This document shows, piece by piece, positions 1,974 to 13,821 of a stretch of DNA of 64,000 nucleotides. The stretch's first letter is position 1. Each line of letters opens with the position of its first letter. The notes under the pieces were generated by a model. It did not search any database. It was not told the DNA's origin and worked only from the letters and a program-made list of their open reading frames with translations. Where the stretch lies: NCBI RefSeq assembly GCF_025666195.1, contig NZ_CP102592.1, positions 4,030,001 to 4,094,000 of the forward strand. Reading direction: 5' to 3'. A program made the position numbers and the translations under genes. This DNA comes from Xanthomonas sp. CFBP 8443. Its GTDB lineage: Bacteria > Pseudomonadota > Gammaproteobacteria > Xanthomonadales > Xanthomonadaceae.

Positions 1974-2002
1974 TTGAGAATAACTCTCATCTGAACCATA
2001 AT
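1974..2002 (+). promoter_or_regulatory. Sigma70-type promoter of the ECF sigma gene
   Basis: TTGAGA (1974-1979) and CATAAT (1997-2002) are separated by exactly 17 bp, one or two mismatches from the TTGACA/TATAAT consensus. Transcription would begin near 2009. This matters for the gene start: an in-frame ATG at 2001 lies inside the -10 hexamer and cannot be on the transcript, so translation must begin at the next ATG, 2034. Confidence 0.72.
1975..1989. promoter_or_regulatory. Fur box
   Basis: TGAGAAT-A-ACTCTCA is a 7-1-7 inverted repeat with a single mismatch in the right arm (ACTCTCA for ATTCTCA). It fits the short Fur-box model TGATAATNATTATCA in its GAGAAT form. It overlaps the -35 hexamer and spacer of the promoter, so Fur-Fe(II) binding would block RNA polymerase. 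It is the only convincing Fur site found in the locus. Confidence 0.75.
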
Positions 2003-2033
2003 GGCGCTCTTACCGCAGGTCTGGACGCACGCC

Positions 2034-2573
2034 ATGTCGGTTCCGTCGCCTCCGGCCGACGCCGCCCCGCTGGCGGCCGAGCTGGAAAACAGCTACGAGG
2101 AGCTGCGCCGATACGCCTCGCGCAAGTACGCCTCTGCCGCAGACGACCTGCTGCACGATGCGTGGCTCCGCCTGGCCTCGCGCGCCGACTCCGGCGCCGG
2201 GACCGCCGCGGTGCGCGACCCGGTCACCTACCTGCGCCGGATCGTCGACAACCTCGCGATCGACCGGCACCGGCTGGCGGCGTCCCGCAACCGCTTCCTC
2301 TCTTCTGCGGAAAAACACGAAGACATTGCCAGCCCTGCACCGTCGCCCTACCAGGTGGCGCTGAGCGAGCAGGAGTACGCGGTCCTGCAACAGGCGGTAC
2401 GCGACCTGCCGGCGCAGGCGCGGCGGGTGTTCATCCTGTTCCGCGGCCGCGGCCTGAGCATGGCGCAGATCGCCGCGCAATTGGGCATCTCGCCGCGCAC
2501 CGTGGAAAAGCACATCGCCGTCGCCGTCGCCCATTGCCGGCGGCGGCTGCGCGACGCGGGCCGGGACGTGTGA
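2034..2573 (+). CDS. ECF sigma factor, FecI family
   Basis: A 179-residue extracytoplasmic-function sigma factor. Region 2 is visible as YEELRRYASRKY...DDLLHDAWLRL...RDPVTYLRRIVDNLAIDRHR (about residues 20-85). Region 4, with its helix-turn-helix, is LPAQARRVFILFRGRGLSMAQIAAQLGISPRTVEKHI (about 125-170). FecI-type factors are switched on by a cognate FecR when an outer-membrane receptor binds its ligand. Here fecR follows after 116 bp and the receptor after that, the classic FecI-FecR-FecA order. A Fur box overlaps its promoter. The start at 2034 is chosen because the earlier ATG (2001) sits in the -10 element. Confidence 0.9.
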   Translation: MSVPSPPADAAPLAAELENSYEELRRYASRKYASAADDLLHDAWLRLASRADSGAGTAAVRDPVTYLRRIVDNLAIDRHRLAASRNRFLSSAEKHEDIASPAPSPYQVALSEQEYAVLQQAVRDLPAQARRVFILFRGRGLSMAQIAAQLGISPRTVEKHIAVAVAHCRRRLRDAGRDV

Positions 2574-2599
2574 GCGTGGGCGACTAAGGGATCGGTCGC

Positions 2600-2610
2600 G
2601 CTGGACCCGT
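2600..2610 (+). promoter_or_regulatory. 11-bp element shared with the receptor leader
   Basis: GCTGGACCCGT occurs here, 80 bp before fecR, and again at 3847-3857, 68 bp before the receptor gene. The position ahead of the two genes expected to be controlled by the ECF sigma factor suggests part of its promoter, but a matching -10 element at constant spacing was not seen. Confidence 0.35.
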
Positions 2611-2689
2611 CAGCATTTCTATAGCCCGTTCCATAGCCCCGTTCCGCTCGCCGCTGGCGGCCACCCATTCCTTAACGGATAGGCAGACG

Positions 2690-3778
<1,089 letters not shown>

Positions 3779-3846
3779 TGAACAAAACATAAACAAAACC
3801 GTCGGTACCGCACACAGACGGCAAACGGACTGGGTAGTAGGACCCG

Positions 3847-3857
3847 GCTGGACCCGT
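3847..3857 (+). promoter_or_regulatory. Second copy of the shared 11-bp element
   Basis: An exact copy of the GCTGGACCCGT found at 2600-2610, in the leader of the TonB-dependent receptor. It is preceded by a partial duplicate (GGACCCG at 3840-3846). Confidence 0.35.
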
Positions 3858-3924
3858 GTTACCAGGAAGAACGGAATGATTTTCGTTCGCATCACACACC
3901 CTCTTCTTCCCGATATCCGATTCC

Positions 3925-6900
3925 ATGCCCCTCGCCACCACCGCCGTCCGCAGGCGCCGCTTCTCTGCCTGCCGCACCCTGCTCTCCAGCACCATCGCGC
4001 TGGCGCTGCTCCCCCTCGCCACGTCGACCTACGCGCAGTCGCCGGCCGCCGCGACCGGCACGCCGCCGGCGCGCTACGCCATCGATCTGGAGGCGCAGCC
4101 GCTGCCCGATGCGCTGGTGAAGCTGTCCGCGCAAACCGGATTGCAGGTGCTGTACAGCCGACAGGAGCCCTACCGCCTGGTCACTCCCGCGGTGCAGGGC
4201 GACTACAGCGCCGAGCAGGCCCTGCAGCGCCTGCTGCAGGGCAGCGGCCTGGTGCCGCGGCGGACCGGCGCCAACGCGGTCACGCTGGACGTCCTTGCCA
4301 ATCCTCCCGCGCCGGGCGGACGCGACGCGGCGATCGTCACCGACACCTTGAACGTGGCCGGCGCCGCGCGCGGCGATGCCACCGGCAGCGCGCGCGACGT
4401 CCAGGGCTACGACGACATCTACGACCTGGACCTGTCGACTTCGTACATCGGCCGCACCGAGGTCGAACGCTACAAGGGCGCCACCCCGTCGGACCTGCTC
4501 AACGGCGTCGCCGGCGTGTTCAGCGGCGACGCCCGCAACAGTGGCGCGCTGGACCTCAACATCCGCGGCATCCAGGGTCCAGGGCGCGTGCCGGTGACCA
4601 TCGACGGCACCGAGCAGGCGTTGACGGTCTGGCGCGGCTACAACGGCGCCAGCAACCGCAACTACATCGACCCGTTCCTGATCGGCGGCATCCGGATCCT
4701 CAAGGGCCCCTCGCTGACCCGCAACGTCGCCACCGGCATCGGCGGCGCGATGGTCGTCGATACCCTGGACGTGGACGACGTCGTCGAGCAAGGCCAGCGC
4801 TTCGGCGGCGAATTCAAGCTCGAGGGCAGCAGCAACGCGACCTCGCCGCGGCTGCCGACCCTGCACACCGGCGAGGACTACCGCACGGTCGAGGGCTTCC
4901 CCCAGGCCACGCCCAACATCCCCTACACCGATCGCACCCTGCTGGTGACGCCGCGCAGCGGCGGCGGGGGCTACAACGTCCTCGACGGCGACGATTACGC
5001 GTACCGGCTCGCACTGGGCTGGCGGCCCGCGGAGAACCTCGACCTGCTGGCCGCCTATGCCTATCGCGAACGCGGCAACTACTACGCCGGCAAGCGCGGC
5101 GCCGGCTACTACAGCAAAGCGACAGGCTCCTCCGCCGACGACTACATCCTGTCGATGGCCAACTACTGGCTGCCCGGCAACGAGGTGACCAACACGTCGA
5201 GCCAGATGGAATCCTGGCTGTTCAAGGCCACCTGGCGCCCCAGCGACGAACAGGCGCTGCAGGTGGGCTACCGCGACAGCCTCTCGCACTACGGCGAGGT
5301 GATGCCCTCGCGGATCATCGCCTCGCAGGACCGCGCCGCCATCCAATGGCCGACCAGCCGGGTCGATGCGAAGGCGTGGAACCTGGAATATCAGTGGCAG
5401 CCGGCGGACAGCCGCTGGATCGACCTGTACGCCAACCTGTGGCGCACCGAGACGGTCAGCGACACCTACACCGCCGGCGGCTTTCCGAACTACGCGCAAG
5501 GCGTCGACGCCCCGCTGCTGAAGAACACCGCGCTGGCCAATGCGCGCAACGCGCGCAACGGCATCACCCTGAGCAACAGGATTCGCCTCGCCGATCGCCT
5601 CGACCTGACCCTGGGCGGCAACTTCCAGCATGAGACGCTGCGCTCGGACGATGCCTATTTCGGCGTCAGCGATGGCTGGCGCATGTATCCGCGCGCAGGC
5701 CGGCGCGAGGAATGGCAGGCCAATTTCAATTTCGAATGGCGGCCGCTCGACTTCCTGACCCTGAGCGCCGGTGCGCGCTACGCCTCGTATTGGGCCTTCG
5801 ACGATTTCCTGGACGCGCACGCCGGCCAGATCAGGCAGTCCGTGGTCACCGGCTACGAGATCGGCTACCGCACGACCGAGACCTACACACAGCAGCAGCG
5901 CGAGGCGCTGATCGCCGACCAGCTCGCCGGCAACCTGGAACTGCTGGAACTGGAGATCATCACCCAGCAGGAGTACGACGAGATCGCCGCCGCGCTGCTG
6001 CAGAACGTCCCCAGCAGCTACGAGGTGCAGCACCGGGTGCCGTGGCAGCCGGACGCCAACGGCGACTACACCAAGGCCGGCAACGCCTGCCTCAACGGGT
6101 CACTGGACGGCCTGGCCGGCACGGCCGGGCAGACCTGCCTCGCCAGTGCCGTGACCCAGACCCTCGACGCCACCGCGCGCAAGCGCAAGGACCATGGCTG
6201 GGTGCCGTTCTTCTCGGCCACGGTGAACTTCGGCGACTACAGCCGCGTCTATTTCCGCTACGGCGAAACCCTGCGCTTCCCCAGCATGTTCGAAAGCACG
6301 GTGGCGTTCTCCGCTTCGCTCAATCCCTGGGGCGTGCGGCCCGAGCACGCCTACAACTGGGAGCTGGCCTACGTCCACGATCTGAGCCCGCTGCTCGGCG
6401 CCGACACCACCGCCGACGTCAAGCTGGCCTATTACGTCAACAAGACGCGCGACGTGATCGAACGTGATCCCGGCTTCAAGTTCGACAACATCGAAAAGCA
6501 GACCCTCCGCGGCCTCGAGTTCCAGGGCCGCTACGACAACGGACGGCTGTTCACCGACCTGGGCGTCAACTACAGCCTGGAGAACGAGGTCTGCGACGAG
6601 ACCACCGCGGCGCTGCTGTCCAGCACCAACGGCTACGTCATCGGCAGCGGCCAGATCGTGCCGACCTGCGTCGACTACGGATTCGTCGGCGGCTACCTGC
6701 TGACCCAGAGCACGCCGGAGCTGTCGGCGACGTGGTCGCTGGGCGGGCGCCTGCTGCAGCGGCGCCTCGAGCTGGGCAGTCGCGTCACCTACTACAAGCA
6801 GTACCGGAATCCGGACCTGGACTGGTTCCGCGAGAACTCGATCCAGAACCAGGACGGGCGGCTGGTCTACACCTTCAACGTGCCGTTCTCCTGGGGCAGG

Positions 6901-7065
6901 ACGGTGCTGCTGGATGCCTACGCCAGCTACAAGCTGCGCGAGAACCTGGACGTGGAGCTGACCGCCACCAACCTCACCGACCGCTACTACGTCGACCCCG
7001 CCACGCGCTCGACCGTCGCGGCGCCGGGACGGACGCTGAAACTCAGTTTGACCGGGAGGTTCTGA
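3925..7065 (+). CDS. TonB-dependent heme/hemophore receptor with STN signalling domain
   Basis: A 1046-residue outer-membrane receptor. A signal peptide ends near residue 37 (...LATSTYAQ). An STN domain follows (about 50-125: RYAIDLEAQPLPDALVKLSA...), as in FecA, FpvA and HasR, which signal through FecR and an ECF sigma. A TonB-box-like DTLNV lies at 140-144. The plug follows (about 165-310: VERYKGATPSDLLNGVAGVFSG, LNIRGIQGPGRVPVTIDG, GGIRILKGPSLTRN) and then a 22-strand-type barrel ending in aromatic SLTGRF. Position next to a hemophilin-like gene, Slam and heme oxygenase makes heme or heme-hemophore the likely ligand, comparable to HphR of Acinetobacter. The substrate is inferred from context. 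Confidence 0.9.
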   Translation: MPLATTAVRRRRFSACRTLLSSTIALALLPLATSTYAQSPAAATGTPPARYAIDLEAQPLPDALVKLSAQTGLQVLYSRQEPYRLVTPAVQGDYSAEQALQRLLQGSGLVPRRTGANAVTLDVLANPPAPGGRDAAIVTDTLNVAGAARGDATGSARDVQGYDDIYDLDLSTSYIGRTEVERYKGATPSDLLNGVAGVFSGDARNSGALDLNIRGIQGPGRVPVTIDGTEQALTVWRGYNGASNRNYIDPFLIGGIRILKGPSLTRNVATGIGGAMVVDTLDVDDVVEQGQRFGGEFKLEGSSNATSPRLPTLHTGEDYRTVEGFPQATPNIPYTDRTLLVTPRSGGGGYNVLDGDDYAYRLALGWRPAENLDLLAAYAYRERGNYYAGKRGAGYYSKATGSSADDYILSMANYWLPGNEVTNTSSQMESWLFKATWRPSDEQALQVGYRDSLSHYGEVMPSRIIASQDRAAIQWPTSRVDAKAWNLEYQWQPADSRWIDLYANLWRTETVSDTYTAGGFPNYAQGVDAPLLKNTALANARNARNGITLSNRIRLADRLDLTLGGNFQHETLRSDDAYFGVSDGWRMYPRAGRREEWQANFNFEWRPLDFLTLSAGARYASYWAFDDFLDAHAGQIRQSVVTGYEIGYRTTETYTQQQREALIADQLAGNLELLELEIITQQEYDEIAAALLQNVPSSYEVQHRVPWQPDANGDYTKAGNACLNGSLDGLAGTAGQTCLASAVTQTLDATARKRKDHGWVPFFSATVNFGDYSRVYFRYGETLRFPSMFESTVAFSASLNPWGVRPEHAYNWELAYVHDLSPLLGADTTADVKLAYYVNKTRDVIERDPGFKFDNIEKQTLRGLEFQGRYDNGRLFTDLGVNYSLENEVCDETTAALLSSTNGYVIGSGQIVPTCVDYGFVGGYLLTQSTPELSATWSLGGRLLQRRLELGSRVTYYKQYRNPDLDWFRENSIQNQDGRLVYTFNVPFSWGRTVLLDAYASYKLRENLDVELTATNLTDRYYVDPATRSTVAAPGRTLKLSLTGRF

Positions 7066-7148
7066 ACCGCCTGGACGCATCAAGGAGTGTGGCTTGTTCT
7101 GGACACGGACGTTCTCATCGTTCCAACCCAACCATAGGGATACATCTC

Positions 7149-7913
7149 ATGAACACGAAAAACACACGCATCGCCGCCGTTGTCGGCCTGGTCATGGCCG
7201 GCATGCTGGGCAGCGCGCATGCCGCTCCGTTCGTCGGCAAGTCGAGCAACGAGGCCTACGTCAAGGTCGGCGAATCCACGGTCAACGGCGGGCCGCACCA
7301 GGCCGGATTCGCCGGCATCGCGGTGAACTCGACCGGACTGAACAATCCGGTGGATTTCAAGGGGCTGGCCACCTACGGCGGCGTCGGCTCGGTGAAGGTG
7401 CTGAACTTCCCGTACAGCGGCGCGCCGAGCAGCCACGACAGCCTGGGCGTGTTCGCGTTCGCCCAGGTCGGCAGCCAGGACGTGTGGTTCGGCGAGTGGT
7501 ACTCGCGCAAGGACACCACCGACGGGCTGGGCACGCACACCGTGTATTTCATCGGCGACAAGCCCGATAGCAGCGTCCCGACCTCGGGCACCGCCAGCTA
7601 CAGCGTGGTCGGCATCAACAACTACAGCGCCGGCAACCAGCTGACCGGCACCTTCAACGCCAACTTCGGCACCGCGCGGCTGACCGGTTCGATCCAGAAC
7701 GGCGCCGGCTTCGCGGTCAACATCGGCACGGCCACCATCAACAGCAACGCCAGCGTCTCCGGCAGCAACGCCACGGCGCGGCAGTCGGGCACCCTGGTGG
7801 CGTCCAACGGCGCGGTCTCCGGCCAGTTCTACGCCAACCAGACCGCTCTGGCCGGCATCGCCGATTTCGCCGGCGTCGCGTACGACACCGCGTTCGGCGG
7901 CGCCAAGCAGTAA
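7149..7913 (+). CDS. Hemophilin-like Slam-dependent secreted hemophore
   Basis: A 254-residue protein with a Sec signal peptide cut after residue 25 (LGSAHA/APF). The mature protein has no cysteine, so it is not a lipoprotein. An N-terminal ligand domain (about 26-140) contains VWFGEWYSRKD and GTHTVYFIGD. A C-terminal 8-strand barrel (about 145-254) follows, with LTGTFNANFG, ARLTGSIQNG, VSGQFYANQTALAGIADF and a glycine-rich end. This is the fold of TbpB-type and hemophilin Slam substrates (HphA of Acinetobacter, hemophilin of Haemophilus, HrpC of Xenorhabdus). His50, His96 and His130 are candidate heme ligands. The next gene encodes a Slam. The SD-like AGGGA ends 8 nt before ATG 7149. The family call rests on motifs and context. 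Confidence 0.82.
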   Translation: MNTKNTRIAAVVGLVMAGMLGSAHAAPFVGKSSNEAYVKVGESTVNGGPHQAGFAGIAVNSTGLNNPVDFKGLATYGGVGSVKVLNFPYSGAPSSHDSLGVFAFAQVGSQDVWFGEWYSRKDTTDGLGTHTVYFIGDKPDSSVPTSGTASYSVVGINNYSAGNQLTGTFNANFGTARLTGSIQNGAGFAVNIGTATINSNASVSGSNATARQSGTLVASNGAVSGQFYANQTALAGIADFAGVAYDTAFGGAKQ

Positions 7914-8005
7914 CCGCTTCGCCAGTTCGCAGTTTTCAGAATTGCTTCACGCAGGACAAGCCAAGGCCAAGCCAGTCCTGCTTCCCCCCTTTCCACGGCG
8001 CATCG

Positions 8006-9505
8006 ATGCACTTCTTTCTCTCTGCGCGACGATGTTCGCGCTCCATGGCATTGCTGCTGGGATGCGCAGTCATGGCCGTTTGCTTCCACGTCCCGGCGCA
8101 GTCGCAGGACGACACGCGGCGCATGCTGGACCAGCGCACCCAGGGCCAGGCGAGCGAGCGCGAGCGTGCGCTGCTCAAGGACGAACTGGACGCCGAGCGG
8201 CCGACCATCAGCGTCGATGGCAAGTCCTACACGGTCGCGCACACCGCCAACGACGTCGGCCGCGCGCTGTATCTCTCGCTGCAGAACCGGCAGTGGCAGG
8301 CGGTGCAGCATTTCCTGCAGGAATACCTGACCCTGGCCGATCGCGATCCGCTGCTGGTCCACTACGCGCAGGGCGCGGTGGCCCGCAACGGCGGCCATTA
8401 TCGCGAGGCCGAACGCGAGTACCGGGCACTGCTGGCGCTGCGGCCGGACTTCCTGCCGGGCCGGCTGGAACTGGCGCGGGTGCTGTTCGAGGACCAGCAG
8501 GATCGCGAGGCCGAGCAGGCGTTCGCGGCGATCGAGGCCTCCATCGATGCCGGCGATCCCAAGACCGAGGGCGTGCGCAGCAGCGTCGCCAGTTTCCGCC
8601 AGGCGCTGGCCGGGCGCCGCGACTGGAACGGCGCGTTCGCGCTGGGCCCGGCATGGAGCGACAATGTCAACCGCACCTCGGCCAGTTCGGTCTGCCTGCT
8701 GCTGATGGACGGACGCTGCTTCTTCAGCCGCAGCACGCCCGAGGCGATCAGCGCCGCCGGCTACGACTACGACGCCAGCGTCGATCGGCGCCTGCCGCTA
8801 CGCGGGCACCATGGGCTGTATCTGCGCTCGCTGCTGTTCGGCCAGGGTTATCGCGACAACGGCGCCTACAACGAGCTGACCTCGATCAGCCAGGCCGGCT
8901 ACAGCTACCGCAGCGGACGGCACACGCTGGCGCTGGCGCCCACGTTCGAGTACTACGCGCTGGGCAACGACGCGCTGTACGGCGCCTGGGGCGCGCACGC
9001 GGAGTGGAGCTGGACGCTTTCGCCGCGCTCGCTGCTCAAGCTGGAGGGCGACTGGAAGGACATGCGCTATCGCCGCGGCGACTACGCCGGCAGCTACGAC
9101 GGTGTAGTGCGCAGCGCATACGCCACGTATTTCCGCAGTCTCGGCACGCGCTGGACCGTCTTCGCCGGTGCCGACCTGACCGACAGCGCCCTCGCGCAGC
9201 CAGCGGAGTCCTTCCTGCAGAAGGGCGTCCGCCTGGGCGGTTCGCTGCAATGGCCGGACGGCTTCAGCGGCACGCTGTTCGCGTCCTACCGCCGCCGCGA
9301 CTACGGCGCCTACAGTGCGGTGCTCGGTGCGCGGCGCGACGACGCCGAGCAGGGCTACAGCTTTGTCCTGCGCGCGCCGCGCCTGGCCATCGCCGGCTTC
9401 GTGCCGCTGCTGACGCTGCGCCGCAGCCATGTCCGCAGCAACGTCGATTGGCTGTACAGCTACGACAGGAACACGGTCAGCCTGAAACTGGAGCGGACGC
9501 TGTGA
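8006..9505 (+). CDS. Slam family outer-membrane exporter (TPR + DUF560 barrel)
   Basis: A 499-residue surface lipoprotein assembly modulator (Slam)-type protein, expected to move the preceding hemophilin-like protein across the outer membrane. After a signal peptide (MALLLGCAVMAVCFHVPAQS from the second Met) comes a periplasmic TPR domain, about residues 85-200: SLQNRQWQAVQHFLQEYL, GHYREAEREYRALLALRP, LELARVLFEDQQDREAEQAF. A C-terminal beta-barrel of the DUF560 type follows (about 210-499) with alternating aromatic strands and SLKLERTL at the end. Length agrees with Slam1/Slam2 (about 490-520). The start could instead be ATG 8045. It is 92 bp after its likely substrate gene. Confidence 0.88.
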   Translation: MHFFLSARRCSRSMALLLGCAVMAVCFHVPAQSQDDTRRMLDQRTQGQASERERALLKDELDAERPTISVDGKSYTVAHTANDVGRALYLSLQNRQWQAVQHFLQEYLTLADRDPLLVHYAQGAVARNGGHYREAEREYRALLALRPDFLPGRLELARVLFEDQQDREAEQAFAAIEASIDAGDPKTEGVRSSVASFRQALAGRRDWNGAFALGPAWSDNVNRTSASSVCLLLMDGRCFFSRSTPEAISAAGYDYDASVDRRLPLRGHHGLYLRSLLFGQGYRDNGAYNELTSISQAGYSYRSGRHTLALAPTFEYYALGNDALYGAWGAHAEWSWTLSPRSLLKLEGDWKDMRYRRGDYAGSYDGVVRSAYATYFRSLGTRWTVFAGADLTDSALAQPAESFLQKGVRLGGSLQWPDGFSGTLFASYRRRDYGAYSAVLGARRDDAEQGYSFVLRAPRLAIAGFVPLLTLRRSHVRSNVDWLYSYDRNTVSLKLERTL

Positions 9506-9578
9506 CCGGTCTGCCGTTCCGAGCGACGCCCATGCCAGGCGCGCCACCTTTCTTCCCTTTCGCCATCGAGCCTGCGCC

Positions 9579-10184
9579 ATGAACCAGACCCTCCTCGCCG
9601 ACACCACCCGCAGCCAGCGCCTGAAGGCTGCCACCCATGCGGCGCACGCGCGCCTGGACCAGCGCATCATGGCCGCGCAGCCCTTCGCATCGCGCGCGAA
9701 CTACGCGCGCTTCGTGCAGGCGCAGTACTGCTTCCACTGCGACATGGAGAGCGTGTACCGCAATCCCGTGCTCGCCAGCGTGGTGCCCGAGTTGGCGCAG
9801 CGGCGGCGACTGCCGCAGCTGTTGGCCGACCTGGCCGATCTCGGCGCCGCGGTACCCGACGTGCCTGCGTTCGCGGCAGCGGACGGCCGCTACTACGAAA
9901 AACAGGTCAACGCGCTGGGCTGGCTCTACGTGGCCGAAGGTTCCAGCCTGGGCGCGGCGATCCTGGCCAAGCTGGCCGCCAGGCTGGGACTGCACGAGCA
10001 GTTCGGCGCGCGCCACCTGGCCGGCCATCCGGACGGGCGAGCGCGGCATTGGCGCCAATTCACCACCGCGCTCGACAGCGTGCCGCTGGACCCCACGCAG
10101 GAACAGGCGGTGGTCGCTGCGGCATGCGCCGCGTTCGATCGCGTGTATGCGCATGTCGATACCCATCTCGCGGCCGGCGCCTGA
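9579..10184 (+). CDS. Biliverdin-producing heme oxygenase
   Basis: A 201-residue cytoplasmic enzyme that opens heme to biliverdin, CO and Fe(II). The proximal-helix motif LKAATHAAHARLD contains the probable axial ligand His23 (T-x3-H pattern). The distal-helix motif GWLYVAEGSSLGAAIL (about 110-125) is the flexible Gly-rich helix over the heme. The size matches HmuO and PigA/HemO-type enzymes. It follows the Slam gene by 73 bp and would liberate iron from heme brought in by the receptor. I leave the symbol blank because HemO, PigA and BphO-type names cannot be separated here. Confidence 0.93.
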   Translation: MNQTLLADTTRSQRLKAATHAAHARLDQRIMAAQPFASRANYARFVQAQYCFHCDMESVYRNPVLASVVPELAQRRRLPQLLADLADLGAAVPDVPAFAAADGRYYEKQVNALGWLYVAEGSSLGAAILAKLAARLGLHEQFGARHLAGHPDGRARHWRQFTTALDSVPLDPTQEQAVVAAACAAFDRVYAHVDTHLAAGA

Positions 10185-10191
10185 TGTCCTC

Positions 10192-10614
10192 ATGTCGCGA
10201 GCAACCCTGGCGATGGCGATGACGCCGAGCCGCGGCGCCTGGCTGTGCCTGGGCCTGCTGATGCTGGCGCTGGGCCTGATCGGCGCGGTGCTGCCGGTGA
10301 TGCCGACCACGATCTTCCTGATCCTGGCGGCAGGCTGCTTCTCGCGCTGTTCACCGCGACTGGAGGCGTGGCTGCTGGGGCATCCTCGCTACGGCGCCGC
10401 CTTGCGGCTGTGGCGCGAACAGGGCGCGATCACGCGCCGCGGGAAATGTTTCGCTGGCGCCGGCATGGGCGTGGGCTACCTGCTGTTCTGGTGCGGCGTG
10501 CATCCGGGCTGGAAACTGGCGCTGGGCGTGGGCCTGTTCTTCGCCGGCAGCGCCGCGTACGTGCTGTCGCGTCCGGCACCGCGCGGCGTTGCAGATGCGC
10601 AAGGAGTTCAGTGA
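10192..10614 (+). CDS. DUF454 (YbaN-like) inner-membrane protein
   Basis: A 140-residue integral membrane protein of the DUF454/YbaN family, whose biochemical role is unknown. The signature GLIGAVLPVMPTTIFLILAAGCFSR is present. RLEAWLLGHPRYGAALRLWREQGAI and then KCFAGAGMGVGYLLFWCGVHP follow, with two pairs of membrane helices. DUF454 genes are often found beside heme oxygenase genes in iron-regulated loci, consistent with its place only 7 bp after the oxygenase. The start at 10192 gives MSRATLAMAM; ATG 10213 or 10219 are alternatives. Confidence 0.85.
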   Translation: MSRATLAMAMTPSRGAWLCLGLLMLALGLIGAVLPVMPTTIFLILAAGCFSRCSPRLEAWLLGHPRYGAALRLWREQGAITRRGKCFAGAGMGVGYLLFWCGVHPGWKLALGVGLFFAGSAAYVLSRPAPRGVADAQGVQ

Positions 10615-10916
10615 TGCCAGGGAAGATCGTCATGCGTTGCCGCCAGCGGCAAGCGCGCCGCACCGGTCCGGCTGCGGCGCTGCCGGCGTGGCGCCGGGCT
10701 GCACCTCACCTGCGCATGCCTGGCGGCGGTGCGGCCGACACCAGGCACGCACCGCCCGCCGACGCCCCGGCATCCGCATGTCGCCGCGCGCGATGCAGGC
10801 TCCGCCGTCCCGGCACCGGCGCGCAGCCGAACGCGTTGCAAACGACTCTCGCCGCTGCGGACGCATCCGCCTCCGTTCCTACTTTCGACACGCTGGATGA
10901 CGACCATGCACGCTGA
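10614..10916 (+). CDS. Small hypothetical protein between DUF454 and exbB
   Basis: I do not recognise this 100-residue Arg/Ala/Pro-rich frame (starts [16 protein letters not shown], ends DTLDDDHAR). Support for translation is its start. ATG 10614 overlaps the DUF454 stop (TGATG), and a perfect Shine-Dalgarno AAGGAG lies at 10601-10606 with 7 nt spacing, the best in the locus. It overlaps the exbB start by about 10 bp, so it may couple exbB translation rather than make a conserved protein. There is no signal peptide or membrane helix. It might be only a translated leader for exbB. Confidence 0.45.
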
Positions 10917-11634
10917 CATCGCCCCCTCCCTGCTGCCGCCCGACCTGGGGCCGTGGCAGATGTTCCTGCACGCCGACCTGGTGGTCCAGGCGGTGATGGT
11001 CGGCCTGGCCATCGCCTCGGTCGCCACCTGGACCATCCTGGCGGCCAAGAGCTGGGAGTTGGCGCGGATCGGGCGCACGCTGCGGGCGGCGCATGCGGCG
11101 CTGCTGCAATCGCAACATCTGGTCGACGCCGAGGCAAGACCGCAGTTGGCCGTGCACGCGGCGCGCGCGCTGCTGCACGAGGCCCGCGCCGAACTGCGGC
11201 AATCCAGCGGCCTGGAGGACAAGCTCGGGATCAAGGAGCGGCTGGCCTCGCGCCTGGAGCGGGTCGAACTGGGGTATGCGCGCCAGCTGCGCAGGGGCAC
11301 CGGTCCGCTCGCCACGATCGGCGCCACCGCGCCGTTCGTCGGCCTGTTCGGCACCGTGTGGGGCATCATGAACAGCTTCGTCGGCATCGCCCGCTCCAAC
11401 ACCACCAACCTAGCGGTGGTCGCGCCGGGCATCGCCGAGGCCTTGCTCGCGACCGCGCTGGGCCTGGTCGCCGCGATTCCGGCGGTGGTGATCTACAACC
11501 ATTTCGCGCGCACGCTGGGCGGCTTGCGCCAGCAACTGGGCGATCTGTCGGCGGGCGTACAGCAACTGGTCTCGCGCGACCTGGATTGCCAGCAGCCAAC
11601 TGCGCCCGGCTCGCCCGTGGCCGGCGCGCAGTGA
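10906..11634 (+). CDS. exbB: ExbB/TolQ family proton-channel protein
   Basis: ExbB forms the inner-membrane proton channel that energises TonB with ExbD. The 242-residue protein has a first helix [22 protein letters not shown] (about 22-45), a cytoplasmic domain, and the paired helices of the MotA/TolQ/ExbB domain: [24 protein letters not shown] and [23 protein letters not shown]. The Ser/Thr-lined pore residues and the GLFGTVWG signature are intact. The start is ATG 10906 or the in-frame ATG 10897. exbD follows after 10 bp. Confidence 0.96.
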
Positions 11635-11644
11635 GGCAGCCGGC

Positions 11645-12070
11645 ATGACCATCCGCACGGGCCGAGACGACGACGAGGCGCTGGAAGAGAACCACGCGAT
11701 CAACGTCACCCCGCTCATCGACGTGATGCTGGTGCTGCTGATCGTCTTCATGGTCGCCGCGCCGCTGGCCACGGTGGAGGTGCCGGTGGAGCTGCCCGCC
11801 AGCAGCGCGGCGCCGCAGCCCAGGGACCGCGATCCGGTCTACCTGACGCTGCACAAGGACCTGGGCCTGAGCCTCAACGACACCCGGATCGAGAACGCTG
11901 CACTGCAGCCGGCGCTGGACCGGCTGACCCGCGGCGACCGCGACCAGCGCATCTTCCTGCGCGCCGACCGGGCCGTGGCCTACGGCGAGCTGATGCAGAC
12001 GATGAACGCGCTGCGCGACGCAGGCTACCTGAAGGTGGCGCTGGTCGGGATGGAGCGCGCCGGGCAATGA
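11645..12070 (+). CDS. exbD: ExbD/TolR family protein
   Basis: The 141-residue partner of ExbB. The single N-terminal membrane helix carries the essential proton-accepting Asp in INVTPLIDVMLVLLIVFM. The periplasmic domain includes IFLRADRAVAYGELMQTMNALRDAGYLKVALV, the usual ExbD C-terminal fold. Its stop overlaps the tonB start (ATGA at 12067-12070), showing translational coupling. Confidence 0.96.
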   Translation: MTIRTGRDDDEALEENHAINVTPLIDVMLVLLIVFMVAAPLATVEVPVELPASSAAPQPRDRDPVYLTLHKDLGLSLNDTRIENAALQPALDRLTRGDRDQRIFLRADRAVAYGELMQTMNALRDAGYLKVALVGMERAGQ

Positions 12071-12819
12071 GCGCAGCGCCGCAGGAGCGAGCGCTGCGGC
12101 GCTGGCTGCTCAGCCTCGGCGGCGTGCTGGCGGCGCATGCGGCGATCCTGGCCATGCTGCTGTGCTGGCCGTCGCGCGATCGGCCGCTGCCGCTCGCCGC
12201 TCCCGCACAGGCGGTCATGCTGGAACTCGCGCCGACCCCGACCGCTCCGCCAGCGGCGCCGAGCGAGGTGCCGCCGGGGCCGCAGCAGCAAGAGCAGCAG
12301 CAACGCCAGGTTCCGCGCGCGCGCGCACCGCTGCCGGCGTCCCCGCCGCTGCAACGCCTGCCTGCAGGCCGCGAGCCACCACCGCCGTCGGCGCCGGCGC
12401 AAGACGAACCGCTAGACGAACCGCAAGCGGCCAGCGCCGCGCAGGCCAGCGCCCCGCCCAGCGTGTCGGCGCCGCCGGCAAGCCGCTATGCCGCGGCGCA
12501 ATCGCTCTCCGGCGTGGCGCAACAGCAGCGCGCCACCTGGCAGGCGCAAGTGCTGGGCCATCTGCAACGCTACAAGCGCTATCCGCGGCCGGCGCAGCGG
12601 CGCAGGCAGGAAGGAGTGGTGCAGGTCCAGTTCGCGGTGGATCGGCGCGGCCATGCCAGCGCGATCCGCATCGTCCAGGGCAGCGGCCACGACGCGCTGG
12701 ACAGCGAGACCTTGGCGACGGTGCAGCGGGCCAGCCCGCTGCCGCCACCGCCAGCGGAGATCGAGGGCGACCCGGTGCAGGTGGTGGTGCCGGTGGACTT
12801 CTTCCTGCGCGAGCGCTGA
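12067..12819 (+). CDS. tonB: Energy transducer TonB
   Basis: A 250-residue TonB: an N-terminal anchor helix (LLSLGGVLAAHAAILAMLLC, about 14-33), a long Pro/Ala/Gln-rich periplasm-spanning linker (about 50-150), and a C-terminal domain with YKRYPRPAQRRRQEGVVQVQF, VDRRGHASAIRIVQGSGHDALD and VPVDFFLRER. It ends the exbB-exbD-tonB block and is probably dedicated to the heme receptor upstream. It converges on yicC with only 37 bp between stop codons; no clear terminator hairpin was seen there. Confidence 0.95.
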   Translation: MSAAPQERALRRWLLSLGGVLAAHAAILAMLLCWPSRDRPLPLAAPAQAVMLELAPTPTAPPAAPSEVPPGPQQQEQQQRQVPRARAPLPASPPLQRLPAGREPPPPSAPAQDEPLDEPQAASAAQASAPPSVSAPPASRYAAAQSLSGVAQQQRATWQAQVLGHLQRYKRYPRPAQRRRQEGVVQVQFAVDRRGHASAIRIVQGSGHDALDSETLATVQRASPLPPPPAEIEGDPVQVVVPVDFFLRER

Positions 12820-12856: not shown

Positions 12857-13720
12857 CTACTCCAGGTTCTGCACCTGCTCGCGGATCTGGTCGATCAGCA
12901 CCTTCAGCTCCACCGCCGCGTTGGAGGTGCGGCTGTCCACCGACTTGGAGCCCAGGGTGTTGGCCTCGCGGTTGAATTCCTGCAACAGGAAATCCAGGCG
13001 CCGGCCGGCCGGCTCGGGCTGGCGCAGCACGCGGCGGATCTCCTTGATGTGGCTGCCGAGCCGGTCCAGTTCCTCGTCCACGTCGAGTTTCTGCAGCCAC
13101 AGCACCAGCTCCTGCTCGGCGCGGCCCGGATCGACCGGATGCGGCAGGTCGGCCAGGCGCGCGGCCAGCTTGGCGCGCTGGCCCTCGCGGATGGCCGGGA
13201 TCAGTTCCTTCACCTCGCCGGCGATGCGCTCGACCGCGTCGACCCGCTCGACGATGGCCGCCGCCAGCTTGCCGCCTTCGCGCTCGCGCGCGGCGACGAA
13301 CTCGGCCACCACCTCGTCCAGCAGTTCCAGCGCCTGCGCCTGCAGCGCGGCCGGGTCGACCGCCTGCCCCTGCAGTACGCCGGGCAGCTGCAGCAGGTCG
13401 GCGAACTGCACCTGCAGCTGCGGGAAGCGCGCGCCCAGCCGCTGCGCGAGCACGGCCAGCTGCTCGACCAGCGGTTCGTTCACCGCCAGCGCCTGCGCGT
13501 TGGCATCGGGCGCGCGCAGGCGCAGCATCAGGTCCAGCTTGCCGCGGCTGACCCGCGCGGCCAGGCGTTCGCGCAACTGCGGTTCCAGCGCGCGCAGCTC
13601 CTCCGGCAGGCGCACGCTCACTTCGAGAAAACGATGGTTGACCGAGCGCAACTCGCAGCCCAGCGTGCCCCAGGGAGTGATGCGCTCGGCGCCGGCGAAG
13701 GCGGTCATGCTGCGGATCAT
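12857..13720 (-). CDS. YicC/YloC family endoribonuclease
   Basis: A 287-residue YicC-family protein, a family with RNA-decay/endoribonuclease activity. The N-terminus is [20 protein letters not shown], then [25 protein letters not shown], the family signature. The C-terminal DUF1732 part ends [22 protein letters not shown]...[18 protein letters not shown]. The start at 13720 is chosen over the upstream ATG at 13741 because MIRSMT is the family N-terminus. It is normally next to gmk, but here 11 kb of heme-uptake genes separate them. It is divergent from rph. Confidence 0.93.
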
Positions 13721-13821
13721 GTGCTGTTCCGGTGCGTGCAAAGCGCGAATGGTACCCTAGCGCCCCGCCGGCCCGGCCCGTTGCCGCGCCCGGCCCTCAC
13801 GACACCTCCGGATCGAACCCC

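Follow-up and report, generated by a model that had tools for sequence, protein, structure and literature searches.

A 64,000-nucleotide stretch of Xanthomonas sp. CFBP 8443, whose genome is a single contig of 5,238,480 bases, was analysed and is called the window throughout. It contains ten genes on the + strand in the order sigma factor, FecR, receptor, hemophilin (HphA), Slam, heme oxygenase, DUF454, ExbB, ExbD, TonB. These very probably form a hemophilin heme-scavenging operon under cell-surface signalling, with two separately evolving parts exchanged by recombination in the receptor plug. The signalling module (sigma factor, FecR and the STN domain of the receptor) and the specificity module (receptor plug and barrel, hemophilin and usually Slam) have conflicting trees, which is the new observation made here. 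Xanthomonad hemophilin operons would then probably constitute a two-part exchange system, in which a lineage keeps its sigma-FecR-STN part and a matched barrel, hemophore and usually exporter are swapped via the plug.

The window locus is denoted W, other hemophilin loci compared carry L-numbers and same-genus genomes carry G-numbers. Each gene exceeded at least one curated Pfam cut-off. The features that carry the argument, all on the + strand, are as follows.

2034 to 2573 (listed start 2001), +: extracytoplasmic function (ECF) sigma factor, FecI-like; Sigma70_r4_2, 4e-13
2690 to 3778, +: FecR-type anti-sigma factor/signal transducer; PF04773, 1.3e-23
3925 to 7065, +: TonB-dependent heme/hemophore receptor with STN domain, HphR/HasR-like; STN, plug and TonB barrel
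4621 to 4694, +: left junction of the putatively exchanged block, in the receptor plug; W against L077, L074 and L075
7149 to 7913, +: hemophilin (HphA), predicted secreted hemophore; HphA_N PF22828, 1.4e-34, and HphA_C PF22829, 6.1e-40
8006 to 9505, +: Slam (SlipAM/DUF560, type 11 secretion) outer-membrane exporter with TPR; PF04575, 1.7e-47, and TPR_Slam PF24575, 9.2e-27
9579 to 10184, +: heme oxygenase, Pseudomonas aeruginosa pa-HO type; Heme_oxygenase PF01126, 5.5e-26
9594 to 9629, +: right junction of the putatively exchanged block, at the start of the heme oxygenase gene; nucleotide change point
10192 to 10614, +: DUF454 small membrane protein; PF04304, 4.5e-32
10897 to 11634, +: ExbB; Pfam ExbB, 3.6e-30, and TIGR02797, 1.4e-88
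11645 to 12070, +: ExbD; Pfam ExbD, 2.4e-26, and TIGR02803, 1.2e-53
12067 to 12819, +: TonB; TonB_C, 1.2e-18

The gene list and single-strand order proposed in an initial annotation of this DNA were thus recovered, with all named protein families present.

The two parts were seen in comparisons with the relatives L077 (genome G017) and L074 (G003). Between these two, identities were 94% for the sigma factor, 85% for FecR, 91% for heme oxygenase, 94% for ExbB, 96% for ExbD and 91% for TonB, and in the middle genes 79% (receptor), 63% (HphA) and 68% (Slam). Between L077 and W the pattern was the reverse: the middle genes were 91, 97 and 92% identical in the same order, and the sigma factor, FecR, heme oxygenase and ExbB 69, 70, 90 and 83%. 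In a four-row nucleotide alignment (W, L077, L074, L075) the signal switched at 4621-4694, where one close relative becomes window-like, and at 9594-9629, where it ceases to be so. Window-like informative sites numbered 814 of 914 inside the 4621-9629 block, and 51 of 311 and 54 of 327 outside it. The likelihood gain was 448; none of 20 permutations, searched on a coarser grid, exceeded 10.9. The flanking DNA of W was nearest to that of G017 (93.0%), followed by G005 (91.3%) and G003 (91.1%). Because the specificity block agrees with the flanks and the sigma-FecR end does not, at least two exchange events are needed, and their directions are partly settled. L074, L075 and L079 formed one group with L012 ([Pseudomonas] boreopolis) for the specificity part (support 99); on the simplest reading of these sequences, the block of the L074 group is a foreign acquisition.

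The left switch recurs in other loci. Receptor identity for W against L009, L012 and L011, and for L037 against L038, was 22-44% over residues 61-140 (the STN side) and 88-100% over residues 181-240 (plug); the Pfam domain limits in the window receptor are 74-121 for STN and 166-275 for the plug. Five protein-level triples, chosen by hand after the identities were known, gave left change points at receptor residues 152-164 (L038), 102-103 (L012), 196-219 (L009), 135-137 (L037) and 159-173 (L077), numbered by the protein tested, with gains of 125-266 compared with at most 10.1 in 10 permutations each. Three of the five lay between STN and plug or at the plug edge, one in the plug and one within STN towards its end. 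The plug stretch next to this boundary is nearly invariant and would be a ready substrate for homologous recombination, the probable cause of the switches. No exchange of this kind was described in the literature surveyed through listings and abstract openings, or in the consulted parts of PMC9249621 and PMC10483418. (Papers are cited by PMC number for the parts consulted, and statements about them refer to those parts.)

Pairwise identities were also compared over 55 loci, namely the window and 54 of 70 loci with the canonical gene order; many are closely related Stenotrophomonas, and L074 dropped out, probably through an over-long frame. Sigma factor, FecR and STN identities correlated with one another at 0.92-0.96, and the barrel correlated with HphA at 0.90. 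A signalling identity below 40% together with a specificity identity of at least 70% was found in 20 of 1485 locus pairs, drawn from few independent lineages. L037 and L038 are such a pair (sigma factor 27, FecR 24, STN 35 and HphA 86%). For L009 and L038 the values were 85, 72, 63 and 47%.

Trees were computed with quick IQ-TREE runs on 15 rows (fewer for heme oxygenase). W, L077, L074, L075 and L079 formed one clade in the receptor N-terminus tree (support 98), as did the four of these near relatives with data in the heme oxygenase tree (support 93, not starred). The data for HphA, Slam and the barrel rejected the five-relative clade (p 1e-6, 8e-5 and 2e-13, respectively). Concatenated sets (sigma factor, FecR and STN against plug/barrel, HphA and Slam; 15 rows, L032 left out) disagreed likewise. 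The signalling data rejected the groupings W+L077+L009 (1e-82) and L037+L038 (4e-6), and a clade of the five near relatives was incompatible with the specificity data (1e-61).

No exchange would be required if barrel, hemophilin and Slam evolved faster under diversifying selection and the rest stayed conserved. In its favour, HphA and Slam belong to the secreted or surface proteins, and some pairs, such as L077 and L074, do differ most there. The contrast is, however, reversed in W-L009 and L037-L038, in which plug/barrel and hemophilin were 85/84% and 86/86% identical and sigma factor, FecR and STN only 24-35%. The window hemophilin was 82-85% identical to those of L010, L009, L076 and L078, yet 63% to those of L074, L075 and L079, although the flanking DNA of its near relative L074 is 91% identical. 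As the clade tests also reject a common tree, this explanation was considered quite unlikely. A second explanation, that multiple complete loci were formerly present together and the patchwork arose as old duplicates were sorted by differential loss, could appeal to the tandem hemophilins in L042, L043, L044 and L061 and to the two receptor-hemophilin-Slam sets in L021. It was judged highly improbable: the switch lies within one reading frame, in the STN-to-plug stretch, so whole-gene loss cannot make it, and the window's own genome holds one hemophilin and one Slam.

Several results weigh against exchange of two tidy modules around a heme-scavenging operon. The left switch of L012 lies inside the last part of STN and not after it, and the right change points vary from inside Slam to DUF454. 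Slam is loosely tied to the specificity part over the 55 loci (r 0.82 with barrel and HphA) and correlates with the signalling part at 0.84-0.89. W+L077+L009 does not hold as an exclusive group on the specificity data either (p 0.009), so that L009 is not simply the sister of the window type. The p values of the clade tests are overstated, because the groups were picked after the identities were known. The receptor matched the heme-receptor model TIGR01785 at 3e-61 with 207.5 bits, below the curated cut-off of 316.85. Finally, an inner-membrane heme importer was absent among the ten cassette genes, and the locus had therefore been called complete too generously.

The functional reading, namely a Slam-dependent hemophilin with receptor, heme oxygenase, FecI/FecR-type control and its own TonB-ExbBD, is supported by sequence families and a structure model. 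The 254-residue hemophilin, which also matched NCBIfam slam_lipo, had as its best solved structures by sequence 8gmm (3e-48), 8gm3, 9us7, 7re4 (Acinetobacter baumannii HphA) and 6om5. Its AlphaFold model (mean confidence score pLDDT 89.6) was predicted to have an N-terminal clamp and a C-terminal 8-stranded barrel, as expected for HphA. The top Foldseek match was holo-HphA of Stenotrophomonas maltophilia (8gmm, TM-score 0.76/0.83), and the eight best rows were all hemophilins, from five species. In A. baumannii HphA the heme iron is bound by H43 and H106 (PMC8560813). These align with window His50 and His96 (counted by hand, with the same chain offset of 10 for both), which were invariant in all 25 rows of an alignment of the window protein with 24 chosen from the 120 of 158 matches listed. 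By inspection, the signal peptide has the cleavage end SAHA|AP, and cysteine, including a lipobox cysteine, is absent from the protein, which suggests a soluble product of signal peptidase I type. The slam gene begins 92 bp after hphA, and the genome has a single HphA_C and a single SlipAM match. No HasA match was found in the Pfam scan, the PDB sequence search or the 50 Foldseek matches listed, and the exporter of the hemophore is Slam rather than one of HasA type. The hemophilin call for 7149-7913, for which a profile search and an AlphaFold model had been proposed as checks, was borne out by both HphA domains, the fold and both ligand histidines, as was the DUF560 assignment of 8006-9505 by SlipAM and TPR_Slam. 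The sequence and model evidence supports a hemophilin that would bind heme and be exported by Slam. That it binds another tetrapyrrole or a metal complex instead is most unlikely: heme specificity is inferred, and a cobalt receptor protein and binders of transferrin or factor H are among other type 11 cargo (PMC12282271), but both HphA heme ligands are kept, a heme oxygenase lies in the operon and the closest structure is a holo form.

The best PDB match of the receptor was HasR. The nearest match of the heme oxygenase was pa-HO (4.6e-43); His23 of the window protein falls on His26 of pa-HO, the proximal heme ligand. A second, weaker heme oxygenase lies elsewhere in the genome (47 bits with its pieces together, over cut-off).

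The operon is of a known type, and its union with sigma factor and FecR is the normal layout. In the hemO locus (heme cluster 2) of A. baumannii, Table 1 of PMC10483418 gives ECF sigma factor, anti-sigma factor, hphR, hphA, hsmA, a TonB-related gene, heme oxygenase and a hypothetical protein. The order from sigma factor to Slam and the downstream heme oxygenase are shared with the window, as is an unlipidated hemophilin with two histidine ligands (PMC8560813, PMC10483418). In hemO, however, Slam and heme oxygenase are separated by the TonB-related gene, and ExbB and ExbD do not appear in the Table 1 entry, whereas the window operon ends in DUF454 and ExbB-ExbD-TonB, with TonB last. S. maltophilia HphA (PDB 8gmm, released 2024), from the same bacterial family, is the best match in sequence and fold and is 48% identical to the window hemophilin. 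Named S. maltophilia loci share the sigma-FecR-receptor-HphA-Slam arrangement but have a heme oxygenase after Slam in one of 12 (L060) and ExbB, ExbD or TonB in none of the 12. The Serratia marcescens has operon (hasI, hasS, hasR, hasA, hasD, hasE, hasB) likewise joins sensing by sigma/anti-sigma factors, an STN receptor for uptake, a hemophore with a dedicated exporter, and a TonB of its own; HasA differs in its unrelated fold and in using the inner-membrane secretion proteins HasD/HasE, without Slam (PMC9249621). Xenorhabdus hrp and Haemophilus hemophilin (Hpl), like the window, pair a soluble TbpB-barrel protein with a dedicated type 11 exporter, and hrp also includes a TonB and a TonB receptor; sigma factor and FecR are not named in the description consulted (PMC8406197). 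Hpl differs in having a single histidine ligand (PMC8560813).

Given hemO and has, the claim in the initial annotation that a sensing circuit and TonB motor had been newly fused to a Slam hemophore cannot be kept: its functional reading stood by family, structure and ligand residues, and its grounds for novelty did not. Nor are Slam hemophores confined to animal-associated bacteria, as it had supposed. A scan of named genomes gave 65 hemophilin loci, many in marine bacteria, Sphingomonas and Stenotrophomonas, with carriers including Marinomonas, Marinobacterium and Pseudoxanthomonas, and a xanthomonad hemophilin structure has been solved. The idea of a rare locus was rejected on these hits and on HphA_C matches in 8 of 20 same-genus genomes (own included) and 24 of 297 sampled family genomes (own and genus included). 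Sigma factor, FecR, receptor, HphA and Slam lay on one strand in 58 of 70 loci examined, some of which are cut by contig ends, and in this order in 54. All ten genes were on one strand in at least seven of the 65 named loci (L009, L010, L023, L032, L037, L038, L064), a lower bound because some loci end at contig ends; L039 has all ten with the sigma gene reversed.

For regulation, heme binding and secretion we infer the following scheme. Iron shortage would release Fur from the promoter of sigma gene and fecR. Arrival of heme-loaded hemophilin at the receptor would be signalled through STN and FecR to the sigma factor, which would activate receptor, hemophore, exporter and heme oxygenase. Hemophilin would exit via Sec and then its dedicated Slam, hold heme between His50 and His96, and pass it to the receptor; import would be driven by the operon's own TonB-ExbBD, and heme oxygenase would release the iron. 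The plug segment is nearly invariant, and homologous recombination there would swap the specificity part against the resident signalling part; private hemophores, or pressure on the receptor from phage or bacteriocins, might be the driving force.

Xanthomonad receptors would then be natural signalling chimeras. In the laboratory, PupA/PupB chimeras of Pseudomonas putida (Koster 1994) placed specificity in the barrel and the choice of sigma circuit in the N-terminal domain (PMC9249621). Signalling domain and barrel specificity are separable in both cases, with a boundary near the natural switches, but the chimeras were siderophore receptors made without a co-travelling hemophore or exporter (PMC9249621). 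The locus adds xanthomonads from plants and the environment to the range of a hemophore system known chiefly from work on animal-associated bacteria. Of greater use are the natural chimeras. In a pair like L037 and L038, barrel and hemophilin are much the same and the control units unrelated, which offers a ready-made test of whether the signalling domain of a TonB receptor and its ligand specificity are fully independent, and of whether hemophilin, receptor and Slam must match.

The adjacent ECF sigma, FecR and STN-bearing receptor genes have the layout of FecI/FecR/STN cell-surface signalling; the genome has six FecR matches. Upstream of the sigma gene lies the following feature.

1974 to 2002, +: candidate sigma-70-type promoter, TTGAGA-17-CATAAT, overlapped by the Fur-box-like palindrome TGAGAATAACTCTCA (1975 to 1989); promoter-like match and alignment

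By count the promoter pattern is not significant (1 found, 0.6 +/- 1.1 expected). The palindrome was conserved with small changes in eight of nine aligned rows, window included, and not in L009. The sequence makes 2034 the more likely start of the sigma gene, because its ATG is kept in the same eight rows and a start at 2001 overlaps the -10 element. The region upstream of the receptor gene aligned in conserved blocks, in which no sigma-factor motif could be named.

Between hphA and slam a hairpin was found.

7951 to 7981, +: intercistronic hairpin GCAGGAC-17-GTCCTGC in the hphA/slam gap; fold and stem comparison

Among xanthomonads the stem varies by paired changes (GCAGGAC/GTCCTGC, GCAAGGAC/GTCCTTGC or GCAGGGAC/GTCCCTGC), and it is these that support the hairpins; by folding energy alone most of them do not stand out (z 0.17 in L009, -0.57 in L077 and 0.08 in L024). 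The stem pattern occurred in 36 of 69 hphA-slam gaps, 35 of xanthomonad type and one unlike match (L073). Xanthomonad loci account for 37 of the 69 by our own count, in a set where L013 and L079 are the same genome; L032 and L064 lack the hairpin. The gap folded better than shuffles (z <= -2) in 21 of 39 dereplicated loci (19 in a repeat with fewer shuffles), compared with 8 of 31 and 7 of 28 for other operon gaps. The hairpin may set hemophore mRNA above exporter mRNA. In several other lineages the gap holds unlike hairpins, some of them terminator-like.

The "small ORF" placed by the initial annotation between DUF454 and exbB is correctly positioned, but the gene is not intact.

10613 to 10896, +: frame-broken relic of a gene for a Fur DNA-binding domain only; comparison with relatives

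As a working gene it was rejected, since its match to the Fur-like protein of relatives is partial and out of frame with the start. In five relatives the same gap encodes an open protein of 105-116 residues that matches the DNA-binding domain of Fur only.

L074, 2961 to 3302: Fur DNA-binding-domain-only gene
L075, 2925 to 3266: the same
L038, 13451 to 13798: the same
L064, 13466 to 13780: the same
L023, 13050 to 13379: the same

A frame for the protein was not found in the L077 gap, where residual likeness was seen by eye only. All five proteins gave Pfam FUR matches below cut-off (E 0.002-0.02), and their profile matched Fur at 1e-5, one stretch each, on the DNA-binding domain. Stronger hits to TAL-effector repeats (E down to 3e-11) were set aside as sums over many repeats, because one of nine rows (4osl) had a stretch passing alone (E 1) and eight had none. 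The protein may act as a local regulator that lacks Fur's metal-sensing half.

The cassette lies between two genes on the opposite strand.

1125 to 1751, -: guanylate kinase gene, presumably gmk, left flank of the insertion site; sequence match in same-genus genomes
12857 to 13741, -: right-flank gene of the insertion site, which we take to be yicC; sequence match in same-genus genomes

The site was empty in 10 of 20 same-genus genomes, where 116-161 bp separate the ends of the two gene matches; in one of the 10, G016, hemophilin is located elsewhere (L038). A 10.7-11.3 kb interval with the cassette was present in five (own, G003, G005, G012, G017). In G011 the genes are 16.6 kb apart and the sigma-to-DUF454 part is present; ExbB, ExbD and TonB were not found in this interval, and other DNA adjoins yicC. 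The G002 cassette adjoins gmk, and its other flank is cut off by the contig end. In G008 and G013 the site is occupied by other DNA (10.0 and 6.2 kb), and 207 kb separate gmk from yicC in G019. Pseudoxanthomonas winnipegensis L010 has its cassette at the same site. The site also takes up other DNA, as in the intervals of G013 (L081) and G011 (L078); that of G011 has an aminotransferase-domain protein beside the cassette, and that of G008 (L080) includes a relative of a Tle1-like type VI secretion effector. In Salinivibrio proteolyticus (L063) the cassette adjoins a divergent gmk, as in Xanthomonas, through shared site preference or coincidence.

Other loci showed irregularities of their own. 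The four loci with tandem hemophilin copies (L042, L043, L044, L061) are of Stenotrophomonas type, and the two receptor-hemophilin-Slam sets of L021 stand side by side in Marinobacter oulmenensis. Slam is split into two adjacent open frames in L047 (S. maltophilia D457) and in L020 (a metagenome-assembled genome of an Osedax symbiont), where the receptor is likewise broken up. L035, filed as a metagenome-assembled genome of a Rickettsia endosymbiont, carries a Stenotrophomonas-type hemophilin locus, probably as assembly contamination.

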